A stretch of DNA of 64,000 nt, taken from Limnoglobus roseus. Its GTDB lineage: Bacteria; Planctomycetota; Planctomycetia; Gemmatales; Gemmataceae. Positions within the stretch are counted from its first letter, which is position 1. Every line of letters begins with the position of its first letter. Below, in pieces: positions 45,802-60,884 of this stretch. The position numbers and the translations under genes are program-made. Under the pieces are notes generated by a model. The model saw only the letters and a program-made list of their open reading frames with translations, was not told the DNA's origin and did not search any database. The stretch spans positions 124,001-188,000 of the forward strand of contig NZ_CP042425.1 in assembly GCF_008254045.1 (NCBI RefSeq), written 5' to 3'.

Positions 45802-45807
45802 TATAAC
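45802..45807 (+). promoter_or_regulatory. -10 box of small-RNA gene 1
   Basis: TATAAC within GTATAACC. Transcription would start near 45814, three bases before the 5' arm of the closing stem at 45817. The same box occurs at exactly the same distance (28 bases between box and core) before small-RNA gene 2, although the sequence between differs. No convincing -35 for this copy. Confidence 0.65.
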
Positions 45808-45816
45808 CACTCGCAA

Positions 45817-46070
45817 GTCGTTTCGTCGGCGTTCGGTTAAGCTCGCTGCTCTGCAGCAGGATGATGTTGCGTCATCCGAGCACATGGCTTGCCATGCTAC
45901 CCAAGGACGGCTGTTCCAGGACCGCTATCGGGGAATTCACCCCGGGGACGCCCGTGGTCTGGAACAACCCCGCGGATCGTGGTTCCACGGGCGTCCCCGG
46001 GGTGAATTCCCCGGCGGTCCCGTGAGCCGTCCATGTTCCAGGTCGAGAAGTTAACACGCCGCGACGCGAC
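45817..46070 (+). ncRNA. Retron-like structured RNA, copy 1
   Basis: A 219-nt core (45836-46054) repeated at 46195-46413. Fold read by hand: a closing stem joins 45817-45845 with 46044-46070 (GTTAA/TTAAC, CGGCGT/ACGCCG and shorter helices with bulges). Three small hairpins follow: 45845-45857, 45859-45877 and 45883-45896. One long hairpin follows: 45905-45912 with 46025-46032, 45919-45925 with 46014-46020, 45929-45932 with 46010-46013, then the copy-specific 23-bp perfect arms 45933-45955 and 45987-46009, capped by a conserved 31-base tip (45956-45986). A closing stem, small hairpins and a long terminal hairpin is the order of retron a1-msr-msd-a2. Its own -10 box and terminator make it a separate gene. 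Confidence 0.85.
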
Positions 46071-46071
46071 G

Positions 46072-46102
46072 TCGGAGGGGATCGCCCCTCCGATTTTCTT
46101 TT
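46072..46102 (+). terminator. Terminator of small-RNA gene 1
   Basis: Nine-bp arms 46072-46080 and 46085-46093 around the loop ATCG, then TTTTCTTTT. It begins two bases after the closing stem ends. Confidence 0.9.
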
Positions 46103-46137
46103 GGCGGTCGGGGTTCGACATTTTTCCACTTCGGTGC

Positions 46138-46166
46138 TTGCGATCCCTGCGCGGGCCAAGTATAAC
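46138..46166 (+). promoter_or_regulatory. Promoter of small-RNA gene 2
   Basis: TTGCGA (46138-46143), 17 bases, TATAAC (46161-46166). Start expected near 46173, four bases before the 5' arm of the closing stem at 46177. Confidence 0.72.
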
Positions 46167-46176
46167 CTCACCCATT

Positions 46177-46429
46177 CCATCACAACGGCCTTGCGTTAAG
46201 CTCGCTGCTCTGCAGCAGGATGATGTTGCGTCATCCGAGCACATGGCTTGCCATGCTACCCAAGGACGGCTGTTCCAGGACCGCTATCGGGCAGTGGGGT
46301 ACTATTCCACTGACGGTCTGGAACAACCCCGCGGATCGTGGTTCCGTCAGTGGAATAGTACCCCACTGCCCGGCGGTCCCGTGAGCCGTCCATGTTCCAG
46401 GTCGAGAAGTTAAGCGGCCGTTGTGATGG
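46177..46429 (+). ncRNA. Retron-like structured RNA, copy 2
   Basis: Core 46195-46413 is identical to copy 1 at the 173 backbone positions (97 left, 31 tip, 45 right). The arms 46292-46314 and 46346-46368 are a different 23-nt sequence, again perfectly complementary. The closing stem is stronger than in copy 1: 46177-46190 pairs perfectly over 14 bp with 46416-46429, continuing through GC (46193-46194/46414-46415) and TTAA (46196-46199/46410-46413); its sequence is unrelated to that of copy 1. Hairpins equal those of copy 1 shifted by 359. The copy-2 arm itself contains CAGTGG and CCACTG, so each strand could form its own small hairpin. Retron-like msr-msd RNA by architecture; not proven. Confidence 0.85.
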
Positions 46430-46434
46430 ACCGC

Positions 46435-46474
46435 CGGAGGGAGGTTGACCCCTCCCTCCGACTTCACTTTCTTC
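46435..46474 (+). terminator. Terminator of small-RNA gene 2
   Basis: Perfect 10-bp arms 46435-46444 and 46451-46460 with a 6-base loop, followed by the T-rich ACTTCACTTTCTT. The stem shares the CGGAGGG/CCCTCCG pattern of the copy-1 terminator. Confidence 0.8.
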
Positions 46475-46490
46475 CTCTCCGAGTTTGCCC

Positions 46491-49400
46491 GTGAGTGCGA
46501 CGCTCACCCTTAACGACCTGCGAAAAGCGTGGGACACGCACGACCCGCAGTTCGTCTCGCTACTGAACCAACTCGCCACGCAGACCGACCCGCAGCCCGA
46601 ACAACCGCTCCGCGACGGGGCACCGACGTTCTACCGGTGGCTGAACTACCTGCGGTCGTGGGACTTCAAGCGGTTGCCGAAGGAGCAGCAGGGACACGCC
46701 CGCGTCGAACGGCTGAAGGCGGTGGAGGCGGCCGACACCGAGGTGAAACTGCCGGAGCGGTTGAAGTCGCACGAGATCATCCTTAGCCTGTGGCAGTCGA
46801 ACGACCCGCTGGCCCGCGAGATTCTGCTGGACGCGATCGCGACCGTGCCGTTGGTCTACGGACCGTGGCGGGCACTGAAACGCATCTTCAAAGAAGCCGA
46901 AGCGAAGCACGACACCGAAGTTTACGGCGCGCTCGCGGCCCGGTTCGACGCCGCGTTCGCCGGGACGAACCGCGGCAGCGTGAGCGGGGCGACGCTCGCG
47001 TACCTCGCGCGGCGGGCGTGGCGGTACCTGCGCCGCGTGGCCGTGCAGTTGCCGGCGACCTACGCGGACGTGGCGACGGACTTCCTCGCCCGCTACCCGG
47101 AGGGGACGAACCTGAAGGCGACGTGGCTCGCGAATCACGTCTTCTTCCACGACAAGAAGAACTACGGCCGGTCGAACTTCCAGTGGGGCTACCGCGACAC
47201 CCCATCGCCGTCGGACCTGAAGCACCGGGCGTTCGCTGACCTGTGGAAGCGGTCGCCGCGGCCGCTGTTCGCGCTACTGGAGCGGGCGCGGGCCGACTTC
47301 GTCCGTGAGTTCGCTACGGCCGCACTGAAGGCCGACTTCAAGCAAGTGCTGCGCGACGTGGAAGCGGCGTGGGTGGTGCGCCTCGTGGAGGTACCGAGCG
47401 TCGCGGTTCACAACTTCGTCGTCTGGATTTTGCAGAACGTGCCGAAGTTCGAGCAGGGGGCGTTCCGCACGCTCGGCCTGCACGACGCGGTGATGAAGCT
47501 GTTCGACTCGCCGAGCGCCACCGCCCGCAAGTACGCCGCGGAGTACGCCCGCACCCACGCCCGCGACCTGTCGGTCGAGGTGCTAGTGCGGCTGGCGAAC
47601 AACAGCAACGACGTGGTGCGGAAGCTGGCCCAAGACCTCATCGGCGAGCGTGACCCGCGGAAGGACATCGGCCTGACGGCGTGGGGGCAACTGCTCGAAT
47701 CCGAGCACGGCCACAAGTTCGCCGCGGACGTGCTGGTGAAGGCATTCGGGGCAAAAGACCTGACGGCCGAGTGGTTCCGCGACCGTCTCATGACGCAGAA
47801 CTCGGACGCCTTCGCGTTCGTGTCGAAACTGCTGCCGAAGGTCCACCCCATCGCATCGCTGGGATCGACGTACTTCGTCGATCTGATCCGCCGGGCCGCC
47901 ACCCGAGATGACGACTCCGACGACCTCGTGACGTTCGCAGAAGAGTGCCTGGCGAAGTTCGACCTCGCGACGATCCCCCGCGACGACCTGCGATTCCTGG
48001 CCCTGTTCCCCGGCTCGGCCGACGTGCTGGACGCCTGGGTGATTCAGGGCAAACTCAAGCCGCAGGCGCTCGGCGTAGAGTTCTGGAAGGCCCTCGCGTT
48101 CCACCCGGAGTACGAGGCCGACCCGTGGTTGACCGACTTCCGGGCGAAGAACGGCGAGTGGGCCGCGAACCTGCAATTCAACGAGACGCGATCGACGAGT
48201 GTCCTCGGCTGGCTCGCCGACGTGCGGCAGTTCGGCTCCACCGAACTCGGCTTCGACTGGCTGATGAAACTGGTCGCCCGCGGCGAGACGAAATACCACG
48301 ACTTCGCGACAGACCGGATGATTCGGTCGTTCACCCCGGCGGACTTCGCAACCGAACAAAGCCCACCCGTCGCGACGGGTGGGCTTTCGCCCCCACCCAC
48401 AGCAACCGATCTCAAGAAGGCCACGTTCCTCTTCACCGGCAAGCTCGCGACCATGACCCGCGACGTGTCGGAAGCGAAGGTGAAGGATGCCAACGGCACG
48501 GTCGCCGGGTCGGTCACGAAGAACCTCGCGTACCTCGTCATCGGCGACGACGGCTCGCCGCTGTACGGCCAGGGCAAGAAAGGCAGCAAGCAGGTCAAGG
48601 CCGAGGAACTCAACGCGGCCGGGGCGAACATCCAGATCATCTCGGAGACGCGGTTCCTCGAAATGCTCGCCGGGCAGACGGCGGCCCCCGCGTCGGCCGA
48701 CCGCACCCTCGCCGGCTGCCAGAAGCTCTGGGCGATGGTCACGGCCCCCGGCCCGTCGGAGGCCGCTCTCGGCGAGTTCGCCCGTAAGTACATCCGCCGC
48801 CATCACCCCGCGATCTGCCAGCACGAGACGGAACGCCCCGTCGATCCCGGCGCCGAGATTCCCGCCATCTTCCTGACGTGGGATCGCGTCGAACCGCTGT
48901 TCCGCGAGAGCCGCAAGCCGATCCGCGACTTCGCGATGGAGCTGGCGAAGTGGGAGTTCGCCCGGTGGAACCCGCCGGCCGACGATCTGGTGCAAATGAG
49001 CGAGAACCCCTACGCCGACGTACGGCGGTTCGTGGCGAAGGCCCTGCTCGCGGAAGCGAACTCGGAGACGAAGACCTACCGCATCGACCCGGCCGCGCTC
49101 GTGCCGGCGGCTGCGTACCGCTTCTGCGAATCGGCCGACGACGAGACACGGGCACTCGGCATGGAACTGATCCGCCGGCTGCCGAAGCTGCGCGTGCCAG
49201 AGGAACTGTTCCGCCTGACGGAAAGCACCGACCGCCGCGTGCGGGCGTTCGTCATCCGTGCGCTGTGGGCCGCGTACCGCGATCGCTTCCTGACGTCCGG
49301 TTGGAAGCCGCCCGTGCCCCCGAAACCGCAGGTCGGCGTGAAGGCGAAGAAAGCGGCCGAGAAGTTCGAGGCCGAGCAGGGTGACGGCGTGCCGGTTCGC

Positions 49401-49760
49401 CCCGCCGCGTGGCCGGCCGCACAGCCGACGCTCGCGGAGTTCCTTCGCCGCGTGCTGTTCGAGTTGCCCCCGGGACCGCCCGAGAAGTCGAAGGTCGGCG
49501 AACCGGCCGAGGGTGACGAGAAGGACAAGAAGGTCGTCACAACGAAGCCGATCCCCGCACGCCGGGCGAAGCTCGACGCCGTCGAGACGATGCGCGACTT
49601 GGCCCTCGATGATGCTGCGTTCGCGAAGGGCGTGCTGCCGTTGTTGGAAGAATTCATGACCAGCCGCGGCGTCAGCGAACGGGCCGCGTGCCTGGTGGCC
49701 GTGACGCGGATCAAAAAAACTCTAACCACAGAGAACACAGAGGCCACAGAGAAGACATAA
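46491..49760 (+). CDS. Large helical-repeat protein with internal BRCT domain
   Basis: 1089 residues, no signal peptide or membrane helix. Residues 1-620 and 750-1000 are alpha-helical HEAT-like repeats (ATARKYAAEYARTHARDLSVEVLVRLANNSNDVVRKLAQDLIG; RVRAFVIRALWAAYRDRF). A BRCT domain lies at about 641-725 (KATFLFTGKLATMTRDVSEAKVKDANGTVAGSVTKNLAYLVIGDDGS...GANIQIISETRFLEML), the type that binds DNA ends or phosphoproteins. A perfect palindrome just before the BRCT adds QSPPVATGGLSPPPTA. The last 12 residues (TTENTEATEKT) come from the following repeat. GTG 46491 is preferred; TTG 46485 is possible. It resembles bacterial MolR/YehI-like HEAT proteins. First protein gene after the small RNAs. Confidence 0.8.
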   Translation: MSATLTLNDLRKAWDTHDPQFVSLLNQLATQTDPQPEQPLRDGAPTFYRWLNYLRSWDFKRLPKEQQGHARVERLKAVEAADTEVKLPERLKSHEIILSLWQSNDPLAREILLDAIATVPLVYGPWRALKRIFKEAEAKHDTEVYGALAARFDAAFAGTNRGSVSGATLAYLARRAWRYLRRVAVQLPATYADVATDFLARYPEGTNLKATWLANHVFFHDKKNYGRSNFQWGYRDTPSPSDLKHRAFADLWKRSPRPLFALLERARADFVREFATAALKADFKQVLRDVEAAWVVRLVEVPSVAVHNFVVWILQNVPKFEQGAFRTLGLHDAVMKLFDSPSATARKYAAEYARTHARDLSVEVLVRLANNSNDVVRKLAQDLIGERDPRKDIGLTAWGQLLESEHGHKFAADVLVKAFGAKDLTAEWFRDRLMTQNSDAFAFVSKLLPKVHPIASLGSTYFVDLIRRAATRDDDSDDLVTFAEECLAKFDLATIPRDDLRFLALFPGSADVLDAWVIQGKLKPQALGVEFWKALAFHPEYEADPWLTDFRAKNGEWAANLQFNETRSTSVLGWLADVRQFGSTELGFDWLMKLVARGETKYHDFATDRMIRSFTPADFATEQSPPVATGGLSPPPTATDLKKATFLFTGKLATMTRDVSEAKVKDANGTVAGSVTKNLAYLVIGDDGSPLYGQGKKGSKQVKAEELNAAGANIQIISETRFLEMLAGQTAAPASADRTLAGCQKLWAMVTAPGPSEAALGEFARKYIRRHHPAICQHETERPVDPGAEIPAIFLTWDRVEPLFRESRKPIRDFAMELAKWEFARWNPPADDLVQMSENPYADVRRFVAKALLAEANSETKTYRIDPAALVPAAAYRFCESADDETRALGMELIRRLPKLRVPEELFRLTESTDRRVRAFVIRALWAAYRDRFLTSGWKPPVPPKPQVGVKAKKAAEKFEAEQGDGVPVRPAAWPAAQPTLAEFLRRVLFELPPGPPEKSKVGEPAEGDEKDKKVVTTKPIPARRAKLDAVETMRDLALDDAAFAKGVLPLLEEFMTSRGVSERAACLVAVTRIKKTLTTENTEATEKT
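48358..48387. repeat. Perfect 30-bp palindrome inside the BRCT/HEAT gene
   Basis: Arms 48358-48372 and 48373-48387 are perfect 15-bp reverse complements without a loop. It is translated in frame in the linker before the BRCT domain. Confidence 0.85.
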
Positions 49761-49824
49761 ATACCGTTTCTATATTCTGAAATGGTTTCGGTCCTTCCTC
49801 TGTGATCTCTGTGTTCTCTGTGGT
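49725..49824. repeat. Palindromic intergenic repeat (CCACAGAG family)
   Basis: Perfect 18-bp arms 49725-49742 and 49807-49824, extended inward with few mismatches and closed by a small hairpin CCGTTTC/GAAATGG. It supplies the last codons of the BRCT/HEAT gene and the leader of the next gene. This wording (repeated CACAGAG) is a widespread interspersed bacterial repeat type. Confidence 0.85.
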
Positions 49825-49842: not shown

Positions 49843-52800
49843 ATGCCCGTCGAACGCTACTTCCCCTATCGCGGCGACATCACGGCGGCCGTCGGCGTCG
49901 GCGGCACGGTCGCGTTCGTCACGAGGCACGTCGAAGGCCAGCCCACGGCCGTTTACCGCCTCGACGTGGACCGCCTCGCGCTGAGCGAAACCGCCCTGCC
50001 ATGCGGCGGCGTGGCGCTCGCGGCCGATGCGAGCACCCTCTACGTCGCGGGCACGGATCGGCGCGCCTACAAAGTCGAGAAGGCTCCGAAGCCGCTCGGC
50101 GAGCCGTTCGCGGACGCCATCGTCGCCATACTGCCGGTCAGTGGGGATCGTCTCGCGGTCGTCGCCGGGAAGCACCTCGCGCTGCTGTCTCGCGGGGATG
50201 GCTCGCTTCTCCAATCGCTCGAGCTGCCCGAAGCGGGAACGTGCCTCGCGGCCGACAAGACCGGGCAGTGGCTCGCCGTCGGCACGGCGAAAGGCACGGT
50301 CGCCGTCTTCGACGGGCAAGACAAGGCCGAGTTCGAGGCGGCCGAAGCGGAGAAGTTGCACGACGGCGCGGTGACGGCGTTGCTGTTCGAGCCGGAGGAA
50401 CTGCGGTTCTTCTCCGCCGGCGCTGATCACAAGTTGCTCAGCACCTTCGCCCGCGGCCGGTTGGAACCCGAGGACAAGGGCCGCGGCAACAACCACGAAG
50501 ACATCGTCACCGTGATGCTGGCCCACGACGCGGAACGCTTCCTGACTGGCAGCCGCGACGCGACGATCAAGAACTGGCCGCGCGTCGGCGGCATCAAGCC
50601 TTCAACCTTGAAAGAAAACGTCGGCCGCGTCGTCGCGATCGTGAAGCTCGTCGCGAGCAAGCCGATGGTCGTGGCCGCGTGCGACGACAACTCGCTGCGA
50701 GTCTTCTGGCTGACCGACGATGGCCGCCTCGACGACGATTGCAAGATCAAGGCCTACGGGGCGATGGACTGGGCGAAGAACGAACTCGCCGCGGCCCACG
50801 ACAGTAAGCGCCGCGAGAAGGCGCTGAAGGCCCTGTGGGACTGGAACGACGCCGCGTCGCTGGAACTGATCGCGAAGCAGATCGAGCGCGACTCCGACCC
50901 GGCGTTGAAGGTGCAGGCCGCGAAAATCCTCGGGTGGGTGCAAAACCCGCGGGCCGTGACGCTGCTCGAACCGTTCATCACACACGCCGACGGCAAGGTC
51001 CGCGTGCAGGTCTTCGAGGGACTGGCGAACCAACTCGGTAAGGCCGACTTCAAGCCGATCGACCTGGCGTTGAAGACGAACCAGGCCGACATCGGCGTGC
51101 TGGCGGTGAAGGCACTGGAACCACTGGCGAAGGCCGACGATCAGGCGCTCGCCCGGCTGACGAGTACGCTGAACGCCCCCGCGTGGGACGTGCGCAAGGC
51201 CGCGCTCGCGGCACTGGAAGCGGTCTTCGAGCCGACTTCGCCGCAGGCCAGCCTCGTCGCGCTCGCGTCCGCCCACGGCGACCTGCGGGCGCTCGCCCTC
51301 GGCCGTGCCTTCGATCGCGGCCTACTCGCCGACGCTCGCGTGCAGTCGGCGATCCGCCGGCGGTTGGAAGACGACGACACCGGCGTTCGCAAGGTCGCGT
51401 TCCTGCTCTCCGTGCTGTCGCGGCCGAAACTCGCCGAGTTCCTGCGAAGCGCAGACGGCGAACTTCACCGGCAGTTGAACGAGATCGAAAAGAGCGACAA
51501 GGCCCCGCCCAAAGTGTCGGCGAAGGTGAAACTCGACGATGCCGACTACGACACGCTGTTACAGGCGACCGCGAGCCGGGCGCTCGACACCTGCCTCCGC
51601 GGGGCGAAGGGGCTGGCCCTGCTGCGCGACCCGCGGGCCTTCGCGCTGCTGTTGCAACTCAGCCGCGAGGAAAACACGGACGCTCGCGTCGAAGTGTGTC
51701 GCGCCCTCGCCGCGCTCGGCGACCCGCGGGCGGTCAACCGGCTGAACTCGCTGCTCTACGATTCGCAAGCCTCCGTCCGCGACGCCGCGTATTCCGCCGT
51801 GGCGAAGTTGAACGAAAAGACGCCGCTCGCGGCCGCCGAAGCGGGGTTGGCCGCGGGTGAGCCGGACGTGCGCCGCCGGGCGTTGCAAACGCTGCTCGAC
51901 GCGACGAAGGCCGGGGCCGACGGCCGCGACCTACTCGTGCGAGCGATCAACGACCCGGCCCCGACCGTTCGCTCCGAAGCGTTCAAGGCCGTGCTGAACC
52001 AGAAGGTCGCGGGCGGCGGCGAGGCCACACTTCGGTTCGCCCGGCAGTCGATCCACGCCGACGTTCGCAAGGACGTGCTGACCGAAGTGATCGCCCAGGC
52101 GGGCGAGCCGTGGGCCACGCCGTTCCTGTACGAGTTCCTCGACGACCCCGATGCCGACCTGCGAGGCGAGGCGTTCGCCGCCGCGACGCGAAAGACGAAG
52201 GAACTCGCCCCGCTCGAAGCGGCGCTGAAGTCGAAGTTCGCCGATGTGCGCACGCTCGCGGTGGACGGCTTCATTAAGAAGCACACGCCCGCGGCCCAGG
52301 CGTTTATCGTCCAAGCCCTCGCCGACGCTGACACCGGAGTCCGCCGGCTGGCGCTCTCGGCGCTGATCGACGACGAGGCCCGCGAAGCGCTGACTGCCGC
52401 CCTGCGGAGCGAGCACGCCGACGTGCGCGTGCGGGCGGCAGCGGCCCTCGGTCGGCTCGGTGACCCGGCCGCCGTCGGCCCGCTGCTCGCGCTGGCGACG
52501 GTGGCCGAGCCGGTCGAGGAGTGGAAGAAGAAGTCGTGGGCCGAGGCCGCCGAAACCGCGCTCGCGGCCCTCGCGGAGATCGGCGATCCGCAGACGTTGA
52601 AGCCGGTCCTGCCGCTGCTGGAAAGTCCGCACGCGAACCTGCGGACGGCCGCCGGGACCGCGGCGATGTGGGCAGCCCGCCCTGGTGACGAGCCGGCACT
52701 CCGCGGCCTCCTGTCGCACACCGACGCAGAGGTGAAACTGCGGGCCGCGTTCGGCCTCGCGTACCTCGGCGACGCGAGTGTGGCCCCCATCGTCATGCAC

Positions 52801-55800
52801 GACTTCGGGTCGCTCGGGCCGGACGCGCAGTTCGCCGCGGCCGTCGCACTCGGCGGCGACAGCCGCCTCGGCCTGTTCCTCGACCACCCGACGGACCATC
52901 TGCGGACGTGGGCCGTGCTGGTGCAACTGCTCCTCGAACTCCGCGGCACGACCGGAGTGCCGTCACGCCTACTCGCGTGTCTGTCGGCGAAGGCGCCGCG
53001 CATTCGGTTGACGGCGGCGGAAGCCTTGGAGGTGTACGCCGACCCTGTCCGCTTCCGCGCGTTCGTGCAAACCTTCGCCAACGACCGCGGCGACGAGGCG
53101 GCCTGGAAGATTTCGCCCGAGGTGCTCGATTCGCTCGCCGACATCCTTGCGTTTGGATCGTCGCAGTTGAAAGCCCGCACGGCCCGGCTGTTCGCGTTCT
53201 TCACACCGAAGGAGCAGGCCGGGTGGGACAAGGCGTGGGCCGTCCACGCGAAGCGGTTCGCCGCCGAGATCGCGGCCGCAAAGAAGCAGGCCGCGCCGTT
53301 GACGCCGAAGCTCTCGGCCGCGGAGTTGCGCGAACTCGCGTTCGGCGCCTACGTCGGCCTCGTTCGCGAGCAGGGTTCCGCGACCGCAACGCCGGCAACG
53401 ATCCGCGTGCGACAGACGGCCCTCGCCCGCATCTTCGCCATCGCTTCGACGAGTCCGGAGAACGCGCGGGCGGCCCGGCCGATTCTCACGCAGGCCCTCG
53501 GCGACCCGAACCAGCCGGTGCGGATGCAAGCCTTCGAGCACCTGCTCGCCCTGAACCTCGACAAGACCGCCCTCGCCGCCGACGCGCTGGAGGCGGGCCA
53601 CACCGACCTCGGCGTGAAGGGGTTGGGACTGCTCACCGACGGCACGACCGGCACGGACGGCGACGCCGTGCTGGAACGGGTGCTGCTCTCGCGGACCGAC
53701 GATCTGGCCGTGGAAGCGGCAAAGTTGCTCGCGAAGACGAAGGGCCAGGTGCCGGTCGCGGCGATCAGCTTGGACGCGGTGAGCGAGAAAATGCGGCAGC
53801 AAGCCGTCACGTGGCTGGCCGCCGAGTACGACAAGAACGCGGACGCGCAGAAGCAATTGCGGAAGGCGGTCGAGTCGCGCTACCGCCACGTGCGGCAGGC
53901 GGCGGCCATCGAGTTGGCGACAAAGAAGGACCCGGCCGCGTTCGACGTGTTGGCCACGATGCTGAAGGAGGCGACGGACGCCGCGGCGCAGAAGAAGATA
54001 GTCGATTCGATGGTGACGCTCGGCGATGGGCGGGCCGTCGGCGCGTTGCTCGACCGCGCGGAACACGACCCAACGGGCACGGCCCTGGCAAGCGATTTGT
54101 TCGTGGCGGCCGGCGGGTTCCGCAAGGTCGAGTCGGCGGATCGCCTCTTGAAGATGGCCGAGAAGAAGGAGTGGCGGGCCGCGGCGCTCGACGCCGCTCG
54201 CGTCGTCAGCGGCTTCGACCAGAACTCCGGCGATCCAGACGAGGAGGCCGCGTTCGCGAAAACGGAGCAGGAACAGCGGCCGAGACACCCGGACGTTCTC
54301 GGGAAGTTGCTCGACAAGGCGCTGGCCCTCGGCGACACCGGCCGCGTGTCGAACCTGTTGCCCGCCGCGCGATGTTCGCGCGGCCCCGCCGTCGATCCCG
54401 TGCTGGCCACGCTCGCGGCGAACCCGGACGCCGACCTCCGCCTCACCGCCGTCATCACCATCGGCTGGCGGCTCCGCAAGCGAAACGGCCCGCCGGACGC
54501 GCTGCTGAAAGCCCTTCGCCACAAAGACCCGACGACGCAGTTCGCCGCGGCCGAAGGACTCGCCCGCGGCGGTCGGGCCGAAGGCTTGCAAGTCCTGCTG
54601 TCCAGCCTGGAATACCTCGAAGACGTGGCCATGCGGCGGAACGCGGTGCTGGCGCTCGGCGAGTTGGCCGACCCGCGGGCGGTGGACGTGCTGTTGAAGT
54701 TCGCCAACGAGAATGGTCACGCTCTTCAGGAAACGGCGGCGGAAGCCCTCGGCCACCTGCGGAAGTCGCCGCGCGGCGACGAAATCGGCACTCTGCTTGA
54801 GCGCCTCGCCAAGTCGCCGATGGCCGGCGTCGCGCAGCGGGCACTCGTCGGCCTGCGGTGGTTCGACTCGCCGGGCGGGTGGACACTCATCCGCACCGCG
54901 GCGAAGTCGAACAACTGGCGCACCCGCCAGACTGCGGTGGAGCAACTCGGCTACGACGCGACCCCGGCCGGCCGCGATACCGTGCGGGAGCGGTTGCGGA
55001 AGGACGCCGACAACGACGTGGTGAACGCCGCCTTCGACGCGGCCGTGCGGCAGTTCGGCCCCGACTCGCTGGAGCCGTACTACGCGGCCGTGGAGACGCC
55101 GAACGAGAACGACTTCACCGCGATGGGCACGGCCGAGGTCGATGTGTTGAAGGCGCTCCGTGAGCGCGGGGACACGCTGCGGCTCTTGCAGACCCTGCCG
55201 CTGACGACCGGCGAAGGATTCGCCGCCGTTGAGAGCATTCTGATGTCGCGGCCCCTGCCGTCTGACGACGTGATGGCAAAGGCACTGGCGAGCGACAACC
55301 AATGGTCGGTGAAAGCCGCGGCCCGCATGATCGGCCGGGCGGTGACGCCGCCGACGGCCGTGCGGAAGCCGCTCGAAGCCGCCCTCGCCAAGTGGTGGGC
55401 CGAGTGGCAGACCCGCCGCGACACGATGCTGCGCCGCGTGGGGCAGGCCGATGAGGAGGCGACCAGGAAGGCCGTGAAGTTGGCCGAGGTCGCACTCGAA
55501 GAACTGTTGTGGCCCGCCGCCCGCTTCGGCTTCGCGGAGAAGTTGCTCGCGGAACTGCTGACCGCCCGGCCGCACGATATCTGGATGTACAGTCTGCGCA
55601 AGCACGTCCTTACCAGCCTGTCGGCCGTGCCGGCGGCGTTCCTGCCGGGACTGGAAGCGATCCTCCGCGGCACGACGGCGGAACTGCGGCCGTTGGCAGC
55701 GGGCCTGCTCGCGAAGGCCACCCCGCAACAGGCGGCGAAACTGGCGGCCGAGTTCTTCGCGGACCGCGCGGTGTACGCCCGACTCACCGGGTCGGCGAAG

Positions 55801-56103
55801 TCGGCGGACGTGGCAAAGGCGAACGCGGCGCAACCGCACTACCAACCGTTGGCCCTGCCGACGCTGATCGAGGCGAAGGACGTGCCAACGCTGGCGAAGG
55901 TGGCCCGCGACAAGAAGGCCGCCGAACCCGCTCGCTTGGGAGCCGTCGAGGGGTTGGGCTTCATGGCCGTGGTGGACGCGGAGGCGGTCCTCGCGGAGAT
56001 CGGCGCGGCCGCCGGTGACGACGAGGACGTGCGCAAGGCCGCGTGGAAGGCGTTACGGCGGTCGAAGCGTGCACGAAAACGATTCACCGCAGAGGGCACT
56101 TGA
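49843..56103 (+). CDS. Giant WD40-HEAT repeat protein, 2086 aa
   Basis: Residues 1-290 form a WD40-like beta-propeller (CLAADKTGQWLAVGTAKGTVAVFDGQD; VTVMLAHDAERFLTGSRDATIKNW; VVAACDDNSLRVFWLTDDG). The remaining 1800 residues are HEAT/PBS-lyase-type repeats (DPRAVNRLNSLLYDSQASVRDAAYSAVAKL; DVRVRAAAALGRLGDPAAVGPLLALA; DPRAVDVLLKFANENGHALQETAAEALGHL). No signal peptide. Such large superhelical scaffolds bind proteins or nucleic acids. The last six residues (FTAEGT) are encoded by the repeat at 56082. A 9-bp-arm hairpin at 54364-54384 lies within the gene (translated PAARCSRGP). Same strand and direction as the small RNAs, the SWIM gene and the RT gene; probably one functional unit. Confidence 0.82.
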   Translation: MPVERYFPYRGDITAAVGVGGTVAFVTRHVEGQPTAVYRLDVDRLALSETALPCGGVALAADASTLYVAGTDRRAYKVEKAPKPLGEPFADAIVAILPVSGDRLAVVAGKHLALLSRGDGSLLQSLELPEAGTCLAADKTGQWLAVGTAKGTVAVFDGQDKAEFEAAEAEKLHDGAVTALLFEPEELRFFSAGADHKLLSTFARGRLEPEDKGRGNNHEDIVTVMLAHDAERFLTGSRDATIKNWPRVGGIKPSTLKENVGRVVAIVKLVASKPMVVAACDDNSLRVFWLTDDGRLDDDCKIKAYGAMDWAKNELAAAHDSKRREKALKALWDWNDAASLELIAKQIERDSDPALKVQAAKILGWVQNPRAVTLLEPFITHADGKVRVQVFEGLANQLGKADFKPIDLALKTNQADIGVLAVKALEPLAKADDQALARLTSTLNAPAWDVRKAALAALEAVFEPTSPQASLVALASAHGDLRALALGRAFDRGLLADARVQSAIRRRLEDDDTGVRKVAFLLSVLSRPKLAEFLRSADGELHRQLNEIEKSDKAPPKVSAKVKLDDADYDTLLQATASRALDTCLRGAKGLALLRDPRAFALLLQLSREENTDARVEVCRALAALGDPRAVNRLNSLLYDSQASVRDAAYSAVAKLNEKTPLAAAEAGLAAGEPDVRRRALQTLLDATKAGADGRDLLVRAINDPAPTVRSEAFKAVLNQKVAGGGEATLRFARQSIHADVRKDVLTEVIAQAGEPWATPFLYEFLDDPDADLRGEAFAAATRKTKELAPLEAALKSKFADVRTLAVDGFIKKHTPAAQAFIVQALADADTGVRRLALSALIDDEAREALTAALRSEHADVRVRAAAALGRLGDPAAVGPLLALATVAEPVEEWKKKSWAEAAETALAALAEIGDPQTLKPVLPLLESPHANLRTAAGTAAMWAARPGDEPALRGLLSHTDAEVKLRAAFGLAYLGDASVAPIVMHDFGSLGPDAQFAAAVALGGDSRLGLFLDHPTDHLRTWAVLVQLLLELRGTTGVPSRLLACLSAKAPRIRLTAAEALEVYADPVRFRAFVQTFANDRGDEAAWKISPEVLDSLADILAFGSSQLKARTARLFAFFTPKEQAGWDKAWAVHAKRFAAEIAAAKKQAAPLTPKLSAAELRELAFGAYVGLVREQGSATATPATIRVRQTALARIFAIASTSPENARAARPILTQALGDPNQPVRMQAFEHLLALNLDKTALAADALEAGHTDLGVKGLGLLTDGTTGTDGDAVLERVLLSRTDDLAVEAAKLLAKTKGQVPVAAISLDAVSEKMRQQAVTWLAAEYDKNADAQKQLRKAVESRYRHVRQAAAIELATKKDPAAFDVLATMLKEATDAAAQKKIVDSMVTLGDGRAVGALLDRAEHDPTGTALASDLFVAAGGFRKVESADRLLKMAEKKEWRAAALDAARVVSGFDQNSGDPDEEAAFAKTEQEQRPRHPDVLGKLLDKALALGDTGRVSNLLPAARCSRGPAVDPVLATLAANPDADLRLTAVITIGWRLRKRNGPPDALLKALRHKDPTTQFAAAEGLARGGRAEGLQVLLSSLEYLEDVAMRRNAVLALGELADPRAVDVLLKFANENGHALQETAAEALGHLRKSPRGDEIGTLLERLAKSPMAGVAQRALVGLRWFDSPGGWTLIRTAAKSNNWRTRQTAVEQLGYDATPAGRDTVRERLRKDADNDVVNAAFDAAVRQFGPDSLEPYYAAVETPNENDFTAMGTAEVDVLKALRERGDTLRLLQTLPLTTGEGFAAVESILMSRPLPSDDVMAKALASDNQWSVKAAARMIGRAVTPPTAVRKPLEAALAKWWAEWQTRRDTMLRRVGQADEEATRKAVKLAEVALEELLWPAARFGFAEKLLAELLTARPHDIWMYSLRKHVLTSLSAVPAAFLPGLEAILRGTTAELRPLAAGLLAKATPQQAAKLAAEFFADRAVYARLTGSAKSADVAKANAAQPHYQPLALPTLIEAKDVPTLAKVARDKKAAEPARLGAVEGLGFMAVVDAEAVLAEIGAAAGDDEDVRKAAWKALRRSKRARKRFTAEGT

Positions 56104-56198
56104 GAGCACGAGAGGAAAACCAAGAAGAGAGTTCAAAGCAGGGTTTAATTCTCTTCCTCTTCTTTTCTCATGTGCCCTCCGTGCCCTCTGCGGTGAAT
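56082..56198. repeat. Palindromic intergenic repeat (CCGCAGAGGGCAC family)
   Basis: Perfect 18-bp arms 56082-56099 and 56181-56198, with further partial pairing inward. It contributes the last codons of the WD40-HEAT gene and ends 20 bp before the SWIM gene. Confidence 0.85.
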
Positions 56199-56218: not shown

Positions 56219-58060
56219 ATGCCGGATGACATTCCTCCCGACCAACCCGCGACGCCGGCCCACCTGAGTTACGGCGGTAGCAGCCGCGTCGCCACCACCG
56301 GCGACACGGCCCGCGTCGAACTCTTCGGCAACCTCGACCGTCCGCCGGTCGCGTTCGACGCCACGGTGACGAACCCGATCCGCTTCCGCGAGGCACTGTC
56401 GGCCCTCTACGCCGTCGTCGGCAGCGATTACCGGTACGTGCCGAAGGACCGTACCGCGTACATGGCCTACCTGCGGCTGAAGCGCGAGACGGCCGCCCTC
56501 AACATCTGGCAGGCCCAGCAGGCGTATTTCGGTTGGCTGCTTCGCAACGACCCGCTCGCGTTCTGCATCCTCGACCCGGTCGTCAGCGTTCACCCCGATC
56601 AGGTCATGTTCGAGGTCTTCGGCAAGGACGAGAGCAGTTACGCCGCCCTCGCGTTCAAACGGTCGGCGTTCGCCGAAGTCGGCACGACCACTTGCGGCAC
56701 CACGAACATCGACTTCAGCGACGCGCTGTACCAGAGCGTGCAGCAGATGCGGTCCACCCGCAAGACGCGGCTGACCGTCGGCAGCGCCGGCGTCGGCGTG
56801 ATGACGGAAACGCGGCCCGAGGTGTTGGAGAAGCAGATCCGCATTCCCGATTCGTGGATGCGCGGCCTCCTGCAAGTGCAGTCGGCGGCGACACTGCCGT
56901 TCGACCACCTGCGGCTGGCGCCGATGGACCTGTACAACGCCCTCCGCACGCTCCGCATGAACGGCGACCGCAAGGGCAAGCGCCGCGGCCTGCGATTTGA
57001 ACTCGTGCCGGCGCAGCAACCGCGGATCGTGCTGGAGCCGTGGGAGACGGTCATCCCGGCGACGGCCGAGCCGTTCAAGGGGAAGGCCGCCCGCGTCGTA
57101 CGTGTGTGGGGCCGCCGGCGGCTCATGACCATCAAGCGACTGCTGCCGTTCGTCGAGAGCGTGGACGTGTACCTCCTCGGTAACGGCCTGCCAAGCTTCT
57201 GGGTGTTCCGCGCCGGTGACATCACGTTGACACTCGGCCTAACCGGGTTCACGTCCGCGAACTGGTCGTCGGCCCTCGGCTTCGACCTACTGCTGCCGCG
57301 GAAGACGCAGACGCCGGACGGGTTGACGAAGGTGGTGAAGTATCTCGCCGATGGCGTGTGGGCCGCGACGCGCGAGGAGATCGCGAAGGCGACCGGCGTG
57401 AAGGGGTCGGCGTTGCTCGAAACGCTTCAACTCGGCTGCCAGCAAGGGCAGTTGATGTTCGACATCGCGAACAGCGTGTACCGCCTGCGACCGATCCTGA
57501 ACGAGCCGATCGACCTGGTGCGGTTGCAGTATCGTAACCAGCGGGAGAAGGTGGCCTTCGACCTGCTGACGCGGCGCGACGCGGTGAAGATCGTCAGCGA
57601 GAACCGCATCGCCGGGCAAGGGCTGGAACTGACGGGACGGGTGTCCGTCGAGGAAGACAAGCGCGACTACCGCCCGCAGATGGTGGTGGCCGACGAGGGG
57701 CAGGTTCGCAAGGTGACGTGTACCTGCACCCTGTTCCGCACGCAGGGGATCAAGAGCGGGCCGTGCGTTCACCTGATCGCGATACGGCTGGCGTTCGCCG
57801 ACAAGGAAGCGAAGCGGGCGAAGACCGACGACGCCGTCGTCTTCGAGACGCGGGCGTTCACGAAGCGCGACGGCGACACCGAGCAGACGATGCAGCTCTC
57901 GCTCGAACGGCAGAAGTTAAAGGTGCGGTGGGGCCAGGCCGGGCAGCCGATGCGGTTGCAATCGCTGAAATTCAACAGCGAGGCCGAGGCTCGGAAGGCG
58001 TACTTCGAGCGGCTGACGGAGCTAGACGCGAAGGGCTACCTCGACGCAGTGGCGGAGTGA
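56219..58060 (+). CDS. SWIM zinc-finger protein
   Basis: 613 residues. The SWIM motif is complete: C501-x-C503-x12-C516-x-H518 (CTCTLFRTQGIKSGPCVH), a zinc-binding fold that contacts DNA or protein. The N-terminal 480 residues contain a helical and strand-rich region without a recognised domain. SWIM proteins occur with MolR/HEAT proteins in the yeh gene neighbourhood of E. coli (YehQ), where MoxR ATPase and VWA genes are also present; here no such genes are seen and a retron-type RT follows instead. It starts 115 bp after the WD40-HEAT gene; its stop is 8 bp before the repeat in front of the RT. Confidence 0.85.
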   Translation: MPDDIPPDQPATPAHLSYGGSSRVATTGDTARVELFGNLDRPPVAFDATVTNPIRFREALSALYAVVGSDYRYVPKDRTAYMAYLRLKRETAALNIWQAQQAYFGWLLRNDPLAFCILDPVVSVHPDQVMFEVFGKDESSYAALAFKRSAFAEVGTTTCGTTNIDFSDALYQSVQQMRSTRKTRLTVGSAGVGVMTETRPEVLEKQIRIPDSWMRGLLQVQSAATLPFDHLRLAPMDLYNALRTLRMNGDRKGKRRGLRFELVPAQQPRIVLEPWETVIPATAEPFKGKAARVVRVWGRRRLMTIKRLLPFVESVDVYLLGNGLPSFWVFRAGDITLTLGLTGFTSANWSSALGFDLLLPRKTQTPDGLTKVVKYLADGVWAATREEIAKATGVKGSALLETLQLGCQQGQLMFDIANSVYRLRPILNEPIDLVRLQYRNQREKVAFDLLTRRDAVKIVSENRIAGQGLELTGRVSVEEDKRDYRPQMVVADEGQVRKVTCTCTLFRTQGIKSGPCVHLIAIRLAFADKEAKRAKTDDAVVFETRAFTKRDGDTEQTMQLSLERQKLKVRWGQAGQPMRLQSLKFNSEAEARKAYFERLTELDAKGYLDAVAE

Positions 58061-58068
58061 TCGAAGAG

Positions 58069-58193
58069 AAAACGGAACGCGGATGACGCTAGATTTTGAA
58101 CGCCGGATGAAAACCGGATCAGAGCCGAAATCGGTTTTGGTCTTATCCCGCGTTGATCCGCGGTGAAATCCGGCGTCATCCGCGTTCCGTTTT
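58069..58193. repeat. 125-nt inverted repeat directly upstream of the RT gene
   Basis: Perfect 21-bp arms 58069-58089 and 58173-58193, further imperfect pairing inward and an inner hairpin with AAAACCG/CGGTTTT. It sits where a retron msr-msd normally lies. However, its CCGCG/ATCCGCG wording is that of a common interspersed repeat, and the other gaps of this operon hold unrelated palindromes of similar size. It may be a repeat or an RT-linked RNA. Confidence 0.7.
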
Positions 58194-58207: not shown

Positions 58208-59512
58208 ATGGCAACGACCACGACCGACCCCATCGCCCTTTGGCAGAGCATCCTCCAGGCCGGCGGCGTGCGAGCGTACATCGACGCGCAGTTGAAGGAA
58301 CGCGGGTTCCTTGTGACGCGCCGCGATGCGGATGCCATGAGCGACCGCGAGAAGGATCAGTACAAGAAGGCGCTCAAGCAGGAGGCGGCCGAGAAGAAGA
58401 AGCTGAAGAAAGAGGCGTGGGCCGCGTACAAGACGGCGCACATCGTTCACCTCGGCGACGGTGTCTTCTGGAGCGATGAGGCGAAGCCGGACAAGTGGGA
58501 CACGCCGAACAGCGAGGAGCGGGCGGCCGAGAACGAACTGCCGGCTCTCGACTCGCCGAAGCAACTGGCCGAGGCGCTCAGCCTGACGATCCCGCAACTC
58601 CGCGGGATGTGCTACCACCGCGACGCGGCGACGAAGCTGCACTACGTCCGCTTCACCATCCCGAAGCGCGACGGCACGCAACGCCCGATCTGGGCGCCGC
58701 TGCCGAAGTTGAAGGCGGCCCAGCGGTGGATTCTGCACAACATTGTCGAACGCCTGCCCGTCCACGGCTCGGCCCAGGGCTTCCTCGCCGGCCGGTCGAT
58801 CCTCTCGAACGCGGCGGTTCACACGAACGCGAAGACCATCCTCAAGATGGACGTGACCGACTTCTTCCCGACGGTGACGTGGCGGCGGGTCCGCGGCGTC
58901 TTCCGGCGGGCCGGGTACCGCGAACAAATTTCGACGCTGCTCGCGCTGATCTGCACCGAGGCCCCGCGGGAGATCGTGCAACATGACGGGAAAACGTACT
59001 ACGTCTCGCTCGGCGCCCGCTGCCTGCCACAAGGCGCGCCGACCAGCCCGGCGTTGACGAACGCCCTGTGCCTGCGACTCGACCGGCGGCTGACGGCCCT
59101 CGCGGCGAAACTCGGCTGGCGATACTCGCGATATGCCGACGACATGACGTTCAGCCTGCCGGCCGGCCACGCGGGGAAGCCGCACCTCGGCAAGTTACTC
59201 GGCTGCGTGAAGCGGGTGGTGACAGCCGAGGGCTTCGAGGTGAAGGCTGAGAAGACCCGCGTCCACCGCAGCGGCGGTCGGCAGAGCGTGACCGGCCTCG
59301 TGGTCAACGGCGACGGCTCACCGCGCACGCCGCGGAAGCTCCGTCGCGAACTGCGGGCAGCCCTCCACAACTTGCAGCACGGCAAGCCGCTCAAGGACGG
59401 CGACACGCTGCCGCGACTGATGGGCTTGGCCGCCTACGTGTACATGACCGACGCGAAGCGGGGAAAGGAACTCCTGACGGCGCTCGGCAAGTTCGCGACG
59501 GGTGGACTGTAA
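58208..59512 (+). CDS. Retron-type reverse transcriptase
   Basis: 434 residues. Palm and finger motifs in order: RPIWAPLPKLKAAQRWI, NAAVH (201-205, the retron-specific NAxxH of region X), MDVTDFFPTV (first catalytic Asp), PQGAPTSPALTN (264-275), YADD (309-312), GFEVKAEKTRV, and VTGLVVN (351-357, the retron-specific VTG of region Y). Residues 1-130 form an N-terminal extension with a Lys/Glu-rich helix, longer than in classical retrons. No maturase or HNH domain, so not a group II intron RT. Retron RTs make a branched or hairpin cDNA from a cognate ncRNA. Last gene of the block that starts with the two small RNAs; ATG 58208 is 14 bp after the inverted repeat. Confidence 0.92.
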   Translation: MATTTTDPIALWQSILQAGGVRAYIDAQLKERGFLVTRRDADAMSDREKDQYKKALKQEAAEKKKLKKEAWAAYKTAHIVHLGDGVFWSDEAKPDKWDTPNSEERAAENELPALDSPKQLAEALSLTIPQLRGMCYHRDAATKLHYVRFTIPKRDGTQRPIWAPLPKLKAAQRWILHNIVERLPVHGSAQGFLAGRSILSNAAVHTNAKTILKMDVTDFFPTVTWRRVRGVFRRAGYREQISTLLALICTEAPREIVQHDGKTYYVSLGARCLPQGAPTSPALTNALCLRLDRRLTALAAKLGWRYSRYADDMTFSLPAGHAGKPHLGKLLGCVKRVVTAEGFEVKAEKTRVHRSGGRQSVTGLVVNGDGSPRTPRKLRRELRAALHNLQHGKPLKDGDTLPRLMGLAAYVYMTDAKRGKELLTALGKFATGGL

Positions 59513-59959
59513 GACTTTTCCTACGGTTGTCTGTGCCTGCCTTGAGACTCGCTCACAACCCGGCTCGAACCGCTTGCCCGTGGGCCTACCCGCAAGCGTG
59601 ACACAATTCTCACAACCAGGATCGCGAGCCCAACAACTGTGGTGCTGAAGGTACTCGCACACCGGAAGCAGACACAAGTCCTGGAACCCATCGTACCTGC
59701 CTTGTCCAACGGCGAGAACGACGTAAATGCCGGCTCCGACCAGGCACACCACAAACAGAACTAATCGCCACACCTCAGGAACCCCGACAGTTGACGTGCC
59801 CACCCTTCCCGCCGTCACGCGATTTTCACACATCCAGCCCCTAGCGAACCGGGTCACCGATCCGGTACAATCGTTCTCACCCGCAGATTCGGAGCGCTCG
59901 CCGTCTCCCCGATGTCTCGCCCCCTCCGGCAGCGCTCGGCCCCTGGGAGATTGACACCG
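59513..59959. other. Intergenic region downstream of the RT
   Basis: About 450 bp without a confident gene. A minus-strand frame with one hydrophobic helix begins at 59833 but runs far into the antisense of the RT gene, so I do not call it. No terminator is evident directly after the RT. Confidence 0.4.
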
Positions 59960-60649
59960 ATGCCTAGCCCATTCCCCGGCATGGACCCGTTCCTCGAAGA
60001 CCCGAAGGTCTGGAAACAGTTCCAACAGCAGTTCGTCTCCGGGCTGTACCACATCCTGCTGCCGAACCTTGTCGACCGGTACCGTGCCCGCATCGGCGTG
60101 CGGTCCTACGTCGTCGAGACGCCGTTGTTCACGTCGGTGCTGCGCGAGCCGCACGAGGAACAGTTCATCGAAGTCCGCGAGCGGGGCGACGGGCAACTCG
60201 TTTCCCTCATCGACGTGGTCAGCCCGGCCAACAAGACGACCGACGTCGGCCGCGAGGCGTACCACGCCACCCGCAAACTGATCCTCGGGCAACGGGCCGC
60301 GTCGCTGGAGGTAGACCTCGTGACGCAGGGCCGGCCGCTATTGGACTTCGCCCGCGACTCGCTGCCGGAACACGACTACACGTTCACCGTGACGCGGGCC
60401 GCTGCCCCAGGCAAGTTCGAAATCTACACCACCACCGTGCAGAAGCGCCTGCCGAAGTTCAAACTGCCGCTCGCCGCCGACGACCGCGACGCGATGCTCG
60501 ACCTGCAAGACGTCTTCCGGCGGGCGTACGACCTCGGGGCGTTCCAGAAGCACGTTGACTACGGCCAACCGCTCGCGGCCGCCGTCAAACTTGCGGACGT
60601 GAACCGAACCTGGATCGAACTCATGCTCAAACAGTGCAAGCTGAAATAG
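59960..60649 (+). CDS. DUF4058 protein
   Basis: 229 residues beginning MPSPFPGMDPFLEDPKVW, the DUF4058 signature, and continuing with YRARIGVRSYVVE, FIEVRERGDGQLVSLIDVVSPANKT and the terminal YDLGAFQKHVDY. The acidic motif EVRERG...IDVVSPANK recalls PD-(D/E)XK folds, but activity is unproven. Frequent in planctomycetes and cyanobacteria, often in several copies. Not obviously part of the retron block. Confidence 0.9.
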   Translation: MPSPFPGMDPFLEDPKVWKQFQQQFVSGLYHILLPNLVDRYRARIGVRSYVVETPLFTSVLREPHEEQFIEVRERGDGQLVSLIDVVSPANKTTDVGREAYHATRKLILGQRAASLEVDLVTQGRPLLDFARDSLPEHDYTFTVTRAAAPGKFEIYTTTVQKRLPKFKLPLAADDRDAMLDLQDVFRRAYDLGAFQKHVDYGQPLAAAVKLADVNRTWIELMLKQCKLK

Positions 60650-60884
60650 TTCGACCTCTGTTCGGGGCACGATTTTCACTGCAAGATCGGAACGGAAGCG
60701 GTAGAATCACGGTTCCGGCAGAAATTTCCCGGGCGGGAAGAGACGAGTTTTGACGGATTTTCCGAATCGCCTTCCCCCGTGATAATGGCACGCTAAACTC
60801 ACCGCAGAACGTGCCCCGCTCACCCACCACGTTTGTCGTGTTACCCGTGTCGGGTCGAGCTGCCGGCTAAAACCGGGTTCTGCT

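Follow-up and report, generated by a model that had tools for sequence, protein, structure and literature searches.

A 64-kb stretch of the Limnoglobus roseus chromosome (NZ_CP042425.1, positions 124,001 to 188,000; hereafter the window, with positions counted from its first letter) carries a type XIII retron in which two tandem non-coding RNA (ncRNA) units head a block of four genes, HEAT-ARM, HEAT-ARM, SWIM and reverse transcriptase (RT). Retrons are bacterial reverse-transcriptase systems that are often used against viruses, and the type XIII class reportedly goes back to Mestre et al. 2020. The two RNA units, at 45802-46474, have a start-to-start spacing of 359 nt and are flanked by an FHA-domain gene on one side and a long gene on the other. 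The parts of the units and the genes of the block are the following.

45802-45807, +, TATAAC box of unit 1 (sequence; family promoter pattern)
45817-45839, +, 5' side (a1) of the closing stem of unit 1 (RNA fold)
45836-46054, +, 219-nt core of ncRNA unit 1 (core comparison; covariance-model match at 45831-46057, 240 bits)
45929-45957, +, 5' arm of the msd-like stem of unit 1 (29 nt, perfect)
45985-46013, +, 3' arm of the msd-like stem of unit 1
46051-46070, +, 3' side (a2) of the closing stem of unit 1 (RNA fold)
46071-46102, +, terminator-like hairpin and T-rich tail of unit 1 (RNA fold)
46137-46166, +, promoter-like CTTGCG-N18-TATAAC of unit 2 (sequence; family promoter pattern)
46176-46198, +, 5' side (a1) of the closing stem of unit 2 (RNA fold)
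46195-46413, +, 219-nt core of ncRNA unit 2 (core comparison; covariance-model match at 46190-46416, 233 bits)
46288-46316, +, 5' arm of the msd-like stem of unit 2 (29 nt, perfect; 11 of 29 positions as in unit 1)
46344-46372, +, 3' arm of the msd-like stem of unit 2
46416-46430, +, 3' side (a2) of the closing stem of unit 2 (RNA fold)
46435-46460, +, terminator-like hairpin of unit 2 (RNA fold)
46485-49760, +, HEAT-ARM_XIII protein, 1091 residues (PADLOC, 1135 bits; BRCT domain near residues 634-704)
49843-56103, +, second HEAT-ARM_XIII protein, 2086 residues, with HEAT repeats and a WD40-like part (PADLOC, 2040 bits; Pfam HEAT_2)
56219-58060, +, SWIM_XIII protein, 613 residues, of which 45-352 are predicted to be PCNA-like (PADLOC, 627 bits)
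58208-59512, +, retron reverse transcriptase RT_XIII, 434 residues (PADLOC, 536.8 bits; RVT_1; Ec86 RT nearest in PDB)

An earlier note on this DNA, made from the letters alone, had described two tandem units, each with a TATAAC box, a structured RNA and a hairpin terminator, and both the sequence and the folds agree with it. The boxes lie at 45802-45807 and 46161-46166; by eye, the second has CTTGCG 18 nt upstream and the first has no clear -35 box. A G+C-rich hairpin stands 3' of the closing stem in both units. Each unit folds better than every one of its dinucleotide shuffles (z = -10.8, 0/200, and z = -12.2, 0/100), and the 5' part of unit 1 alone, truncated inside the long hairpin, folds no better than shuffles (z = -0.3). 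The two cores are of equal length, as claimed; the claimed count of 173 identical positions has to be corrected, as an ungapped comparison of 45836-46054 with 46195-46413 gives 183 of 219. All 36 mismatches fall within both arms of the long hairpin, which forms a perfect 29-bp stem in each unit, and the remaining 161 core positions are identical in both. The outer closing stems likewise differ in sequence between the units with pairing kept. Across the 64-kb window, no Rfam 15 family matched at or above its gathering score. Some open reading frames overlap the two units.

The locus is a type XIII retron, because its RT, its SWIM protein and both long genes match the PADLOC XIII models. The RT scores 536.8 bits with RT_XIII and 300 with the next best model. 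WGR_XIII matches the first HEAT-ARM protein at 125.5 bits, and no separate WGR gene was found in the block by PADLOC. The RT lies about 12 kb downstream of the units on the same strand, where the earlier note had placed a retron-type enzyme with NAxxH and VTG. It has the motifs NAAVH, YADD and VTG, and residues A202-H205, YADD and those of the VTG type are conserved with small variation in an 11-sequence alignment of its clade. Its nearest solved relatives are the Ec86 retron RTs (PDB, 138 bits). The first HEAT-ARM protein contains a BRCT domain of the RFC1/NAD-ligase type at positions 634-704 (profile search against PDB sequences, E 1.7e-6), and residues 45-352 of the SWIM protein are predicted to adopt a PCNA-like, two-domain sliding-clamp fold. 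The classical cassette, a single ncRNA directly beside the RT, is not what is found here: the two ncRNAs lie about 12 kb upstream of the RT. Another type XIII RT, a divergent one accompanied by a SWIM gene, occurs in the same genome (G000:C1:4809806-4813102, locus L071), where no clear ncRNA was identified.

The position of the RNA at the head of the block is usual in this RT clade, which we delimited at 400 bits or more. In 19 of 20 loci fetched from relatives (drawn from the 37 RT-clade genomes other than that of the window), the ncRNA lies about 12-13 kb upstream of the RT; for the twentieth (G425), one covariance-model copy was found in the genome. Alignment of 23 cores yielded 73 pairs, with 91.4% of the cells paired and both sides changed in 53 of the 73. 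The covariation score is 0.549, versus 0.173 in shuffles and 0.11-0.17 in slid controls, although the slid control leans somewhat towards the true register, the structure having been derived from the same sequences. The number of further pair types does not exceed that in shuffles (123 vs 117.6, a value of 123 being reached in 70 of 500 shuffles). The consensus has the general retron layout of closing stem, short msr hairpins and long msd hairpin, so that the a1-msr-msd-a2 order proposed for the twin units is now backed by covariation. An AGC after the closing stem is invariant in all 23 cores.

The RNA is also tightly linked to the RT clade. Among 198 related genomes, with up to 11 candidates scored in each, the covariance model found the RNA in 38; copy counts from this search are floors because of that limit on scoring. 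The RT clade was present in 38 of 198 related genomes sampled by the same procedure. Of these 38, 35 also have the RNA, versus 3 of the 160 without the RT clade (Fisher p = 7e-32, kinship ignored), the exceptions being G412, G438 and G543 with the RT only, and G432 and G535 (both weak) and G527 (strong) with the RNA only. In a phylum sample of 392 genomes, the RNA appeared only in G000, G065 and G107, with one weak case, G246. When genomes were chosen from 80 named loci with related RTs, all 14 RT-bearing ones held the RNA (two of them, L256 and L263, are G475 and G497 of the 198, as judged from coordinates). The 14 include members of Singulisphaera, Paludisphaera, Nannocystis, Minicystis, Myxococcus, Hyalangium, Enhygromyxa and Psychrobacter. 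Neither the RNA nor the RT clade was found in G410, from the genus rich in copies described below, or in G392, from the genus of the window. The linkage that the earlier note had proposed to test was recovered by the covariance-model search. Copies scattered through RT-less genomes, which that note had named as a refutation, are not the pattern seen: the scattered copies sit in RT-bearing genomes, at 35 of 38 versus 3 of 160.

The distance between RNA and RT varies widely within the clade. Members of the Myxococcus type have the ncRNA close to the RT, about 0.34 kb on its upstream side. A hairpin of this kind was not found within 10 kb of the RT in Nannocystis poenicansa or Minicystis rosea, where RNA and RT are 3.4 and 1.9 Mb apart, respectively, provided that the genome numbering is that of the record. 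Tandem copies recur in G427, Nannocystis and Hyalangium. Two or three neighbouring copies were also seen in RT-bearing Myxococcota (L361, L371 and L375 in Enhygromyxa; L358 and L369 in Nannocystis; L365 and L372 in Hyalangium); their stems differ, except in two of three Enhygromyxa copies, which are alike at all but 2 positions. The earlier note had regarded two ncRNA genes at the head of a multigene block as a new organisation. The arrangement itself stands, but its novelty does not: the retron type is known, the head position is usual in the clade and tandem copies recur. The larger novelty is the existence of dispersed copies with exchangeable stems.

These were revealed by a deep search of one genus of the window's family, which found 35, 21, 11 and 13 copies above 100 bits in genomes G472, G457, G483 and G436. 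From 17 genomes of this genus we read 160 copies, a set that lacks one of the 35 G472 copies and two of the 13 G436 copies. Gene features were checked in 102 units, namely 100 copies from seven genomes and the two units of the window. A promoter-like TTGnnn-N15..19-TAnnn[TC] pattern stands within 85 nt upstream of 74 of the 102, versus 1 and 4 of 102 in control windows. In 80 units the closing stem is followed on its 3' side by a hairpin under -20 kcal/mol, versus 18 in a control stretch, and the closing-stem duplex averages -29.9 kcal/mol, versus -19.9 with swapped partners. Judged by these sequence features, most dispersed copies look like genes. No constant partner gene was found beside them, and their neighbours are varied: 11 of the first 20 neighbouring open reading frames (ORFs) matched Pfam, in diverse families, and 10 more gave no match. 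For one copy, the two flanking genes were non-adjacent among the listed matches in other genomes, so that no empty site could be defined for it. One recurrent cluster of ORFs has a member within 1.5 kb of 22 of 73 dispersed copies, taken as a raw count (e.g. L200:2422-3708:- and L213:2206-2901:-), and the members tried received no name from Pfam or, for three of them, from NCBIfam.

The long hairpin combines a constrained geometry with a highly variable sequence. A perfect stem of at least 28 bp is present in 126 of the 160 copies. In a set of 100 copies, 71 have a stem of 29-30 bp with a loop of 25-28 nt, and 9 have a stem of less than 19 bp. The 144 readable arms comprise 133 distinct sequences, and pairwise identity among 102 arms peaks at 10/29, with a thin tail and a separate group at 28-29. 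The arms are also rich in palindromes. The 104 non-redundant arms contain 81 perfect palindromes of at least 8 bp, where shuffles predict 18.7 (standard deviation 4.5), and 41 of at least 10 bp, where 5.2 are expected (standard deviation 2.5); the same test gave no excess in the stretch upstream of the core or in two flanking windows. Self-complementarity scores behave similarly (10.65 vs 7.09, standard deviation 0.15), one flank being slightly raised (6.68 vs 6.30, standard deviation 0.17). Dyads of 5-bp half-sites with spacers of 0-5 occur in 77 of the 104 arms, versus 18.7 expected, a test made on arms only, and single arms fold better than shuffles (z -8). In the head ncRNA of G442 (L109, around 5143-5160), the msd hairpin has collapsed to a 16-nt perfect palindrome, as if it had been deleted between inner palindromes.

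How the stems change is best seen by comparing copies at matched positions in different genomes, with flanks matched over at least 400 nt on each side and identity taken over the matched pieces. Such comparisons gave 34 pairs, one partner having an imperfect stem in 5 of them. The arms have 28-29 positions in common in 8 pairs (L172/L238 being taken as 28) and 3-16 in the other 26; all nine head-of-block pairs are unrelated in stem. Genomes G472 and G481 display both outcomes. Four of their ortholog pairs are identical at 29/29 stem positions and a fifth at 28/29, with matched flanks 74-97% identical. Their head-of-block pair agrees at 11/29 between flanks that are 94-95% identical, and another pair, in which the G472 stem is imperfect, at 7/29 with flanks 92% identical.

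Stems are also held in common by copies that are not orthologs. Among all copies, 20 pairs have at least 26 of 29 arm positions in common, and in ten of these the loci are unrelated, with flanks about 0.40-0.50 identical (one upstream side being without a value). We counted these ten as eight independent cases, with 26-29 of 29 positions alike on different backbones. In them, identity is 69-80% over the 5' msr part and 89-100% over the msd part, where the figure includes the arms used for selection. Alignments of three such loci show identity from msd base to msd base. Likelihood mapping, wherever it detects a tract, puts the exchange edges 22-36 nt to the left and 15-30 nt to the right of the stem. 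Sharing of half-stems involves very few pairs (right half, 3 vs 0.06 expected; left half, 0 vs 0.2). From these comparisons, the stems appear to behave as cassettes that cover roughly the msd domain, the part copied by a retron RT, and that at times have moved between copies. The edges fit the msd domain and multicopy single-stranded DNA (msDNA) as the donor; ordinary gene conversion may also account for them.

On the basis of what was observed (the genes, the structure of the RNA and its linkage to the RT, the scattered copies, their variable stems with an excess of dyads, and the recurrence of identical stems at unrelated loci) and of the predicted clamp fold of the SWIM protein, we propose that this is a type XIII locus with two interchangeable msr-msd RNA genes, and that its single RT copies an exchangeable set of trans-encoded msDNA templates in a palindromic-bait mechanism. 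We put the probability of this reading at roughly 60%. Each RNA gene would be transcribed. The RT would recognise the constant part, that is, the closing stem, the small hairpins and the msd base, and would copy the msd starting at the G of the conserved AGC; priming from a G after the closing stem is the rule in retrons. In the window, the one RT would copy both transcripts into msDNAs that differ in their 29-bp duplexes on a common backbone. Related genomes hold up to about 34 dispersed members of the RNA gene family and a single copy of the RT clade, so that the templates would act in trans; as nearly all hairpins on this common backbone differ across copies, one enzyme would likely make a set of different DNA baits. 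The variable part is the long perfect stem, which bears DNA dyads, or palindrome-like half-sites. Its msDNA duplex would be held jointly by the RT, the clamp-like SWIM protein and the BRCT-bearing HEAT-ARM protein, so as to present the palindromic site, and the effector would be released when a phage-encoded dimeric protein that binds, cuts or modifies DNA disturbs that site. Of all steps in this mechanism, the bait step is the weakest. It is tempting to go further and to imagine one RT with dozens of dispersed RNA genes and operator-like 29-bp msDNA duplexes in a PCNA-like clamp, with msDNA itself donating msd cassettes between RNA genes, in which case the bait set would be reshuffled by reverse transcription; this extended version is speculative and, in our estimate, rather doubtful.

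Several points weigh against our proposal. Transcription of the RNA genes, their use by the RT, the making of msDNA, the path by which stems are exchanged, the bait function and phage defence are all steps that we infer. The large repertoire is known from relatives, and the window's own genome has exactly two RNA copies (150 candidates scored). In the 198-genome survey, the ncRNA was not found in 3 of the 38 RT-bearing genomes, in two of which the RT lies within about 2.5 kb of a contig start. Only 31-33 of 102 closing stems are below the 5th percentile of swapped partners, and 34 of 160 copies are without a perfect 28-bp stem, so that some may be dead. As regards exchange, the left tract is missing in two of the eight pairs and a measurable right edge in one; the edges are roughly mapped, with log-likelihood ratios of 1.9-10.7 for the tracts detected, and their resolution is poor, since all copies conserve the backbone next to the stem (random pairs are 83-87% identical there). 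Three stem arms, tried as 20-22-mers against viral contigs, had no exact match (0 hits), and neither did the backbone pattern. For 19 arms searched in 8 host genomes (up to 40 candidates scored per genome), the full-length matches listed were only at the RNA genes themselves. The bait reading thus has no matched target, since these searches of viruses and host genomes gave none elsewhere.

The main rival, which we regard as possible although clearly less probable than the trans-encoded bait set, takes the stem as a ruler: a perfect 29-bp duplex of fixed length, on which the RT and the clamp-like protein would track. Stem sequence would be free, and copies would therefore differ; the dyads would be products of template switching, or would exist because arms that fold on themselves make the stem easier for the RT to open. 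The constancy of stem and loop length with free sequence (29-30 bp and 25-28 nt in 71 of 100 copies), the predicted clamp of the SWIM protein and the better folding of single arms than of shuffles (z -8) all suit this model. It does not readily account for the way in which stems change. Where G472/G481 ortholog pairs retain their stem, it is unchanged, at 29/29 in four of them and 28/29 in the fifth, with matched flanks at 74-97% identity; change between orthologs is all-or-none, with either 28-29 or at most 16 of 29 positions in common; and the same stem recurs at unrelated loci.

Alternatively, the dispersed RNAs might be non-autonomous repeats, similar to short interspersed elements (SINEs), that spread with the retron and have no role of their own. 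Varied neighbour genes with no constant partner and the broken stems of some copies (9 of 100 below 19 bp) are compatible with such selfish spread, as are the msDNA-like repeats announced for Nannocystis exedens in older titles (cited in PMC6868368). However, most copies retain a promoter-like box, a terminator and a perfect stem. The promoter-like boxes also lie outside the predicted transcript, so simple retrotransposition of the transcript would leave them behind, and high copy number has been observed in a single genus. We consider this explanation unlikely.

Less likely still, the units could be regulatory or double-stranded RNAs independent of the RT, in keeping with their own promoter-like boxes and terminators and their location far from the RT gene; their tight co-occurrence with the RT clade across several phyla, the retron fold order and the invariant AGC after the closing stem argue strongly otherwise. 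A diversity-generating retroelement, in which one unit would be the template repeat and the other the variable repeat, is hardly credible: two near-identical repeats beside an RT with confined variation do recall such elements, but both arms change together with pairing kept, A stands at only 3/18 (unit 1) and 4/18 (unit 2) of the 5'-arm mismatches by eye, and the enzyme is RT_XIII, a retron RT.

Around the block itself, perfect inverted repeats of 18-21 bp with 64-83-nt loops lie at or near the gene junctions (49725-49824, 56082-56198 and 58069-58193). Two of the three contain ACAGAG/GCAGAG words, and similar repeats are found in the relatives L108, L110 and L113. On the 3' side of the RT, at 59912-63137, lie a DUF4058 gene and a gene for a protein kinase/response-regulator/HD protein, which may or may not be part of the retron.

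Retrons have so far been treated as one RT with one RNA. If our proposal is true, a reshuffled set of trans-encoded templates would make msDNA a repertoire, which would give a direct reason for the variation of msd stems and allow what msDNA senses to be tested by a comparison of stems from one genome. How the duplexes are held could be approached structurally through the predicted clamp fold of the SWIM protein, and natural RTs that probably accept many templates are of interest for DNA production in cells. Our literature searches found no match on retron mechanism for type XIII retrons, as judged by listing or title, only off-topic matches for WGR/SWIM/HEAT proteins, only unrelated matches for retrons with two or multiple ncRNAs, nothing for retrons with Gemmata or for retron trans copies, and no retron paper among the matches listed for retrons with a clamp. 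In PMC12548924 (PLoS Biol 2025), none of the terms looked for occurred.

With respect to known systems, all four proteins of the window match those of type XIII retrons (RT_XIII, SWIM_XIII, HEAT-ARM_XIII and WGR_XIII in PADLOC). Among distant loci of this type (L067-L078), 6 of 12 (L069, L070, L073, L074, L077 and L078) have a similar perfect hairpin of 18-34 bp 0.2-0.6 kb upstream of the RT, and the other six have none at our cutoff. Several of these hairpins contain inner palindromes by eye, and palindromic stems may thus be a trait of the whole type. Unlike them, the ncRNA described here has its own promoter-like box and terminator and lies some 12-13 kb upstream at the head of the block, and those of its clade are tandem, dispersed or more than 10 kb from the RT, as in Nannocystis and Minicystis. 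Ec86 (Eco1), which has the solved RT nearest to ours (138 bits), has one ncRNA adjoining its RT and accessory genes unlike the type XIII block; the TTAGC...TAA layout of closing stem and branch site in our RNAs is presumably like that of Ec86. Diversity-generating retroelements have in common with this locus an RT beside repeats with confined variation, and differ in that here there is no adenine bias, the arms co-vary and the RT is that of a retron. By analogy only, CRISPR spacers and integron cassettes also place an exchangeable variable insert in a constant frame; here there is no array, the insert is a self-complementary hairpin and the few arms tried had no matching protospacer. The nearest precedent that we found is the set of msDNA-like repeats in the Nannocystis exedens chromosome (Lampson & Rice 1997; Lampson et al. 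2002; both cited in PMC6868368), which, going by their titles, are likewise repeated msDNA-like sequences, in a genus of which other members carry the RT clade of the window and twin ncRNAs. The 2002 title speaks of a partial msDNA copy, whereas most copies described here are complete RNA genes with different stems. The locus itself thus belongs to a known retron type, and what is new, within the literature searched, is the proposed trans-encoded template set and the apparent exchange of its stems.
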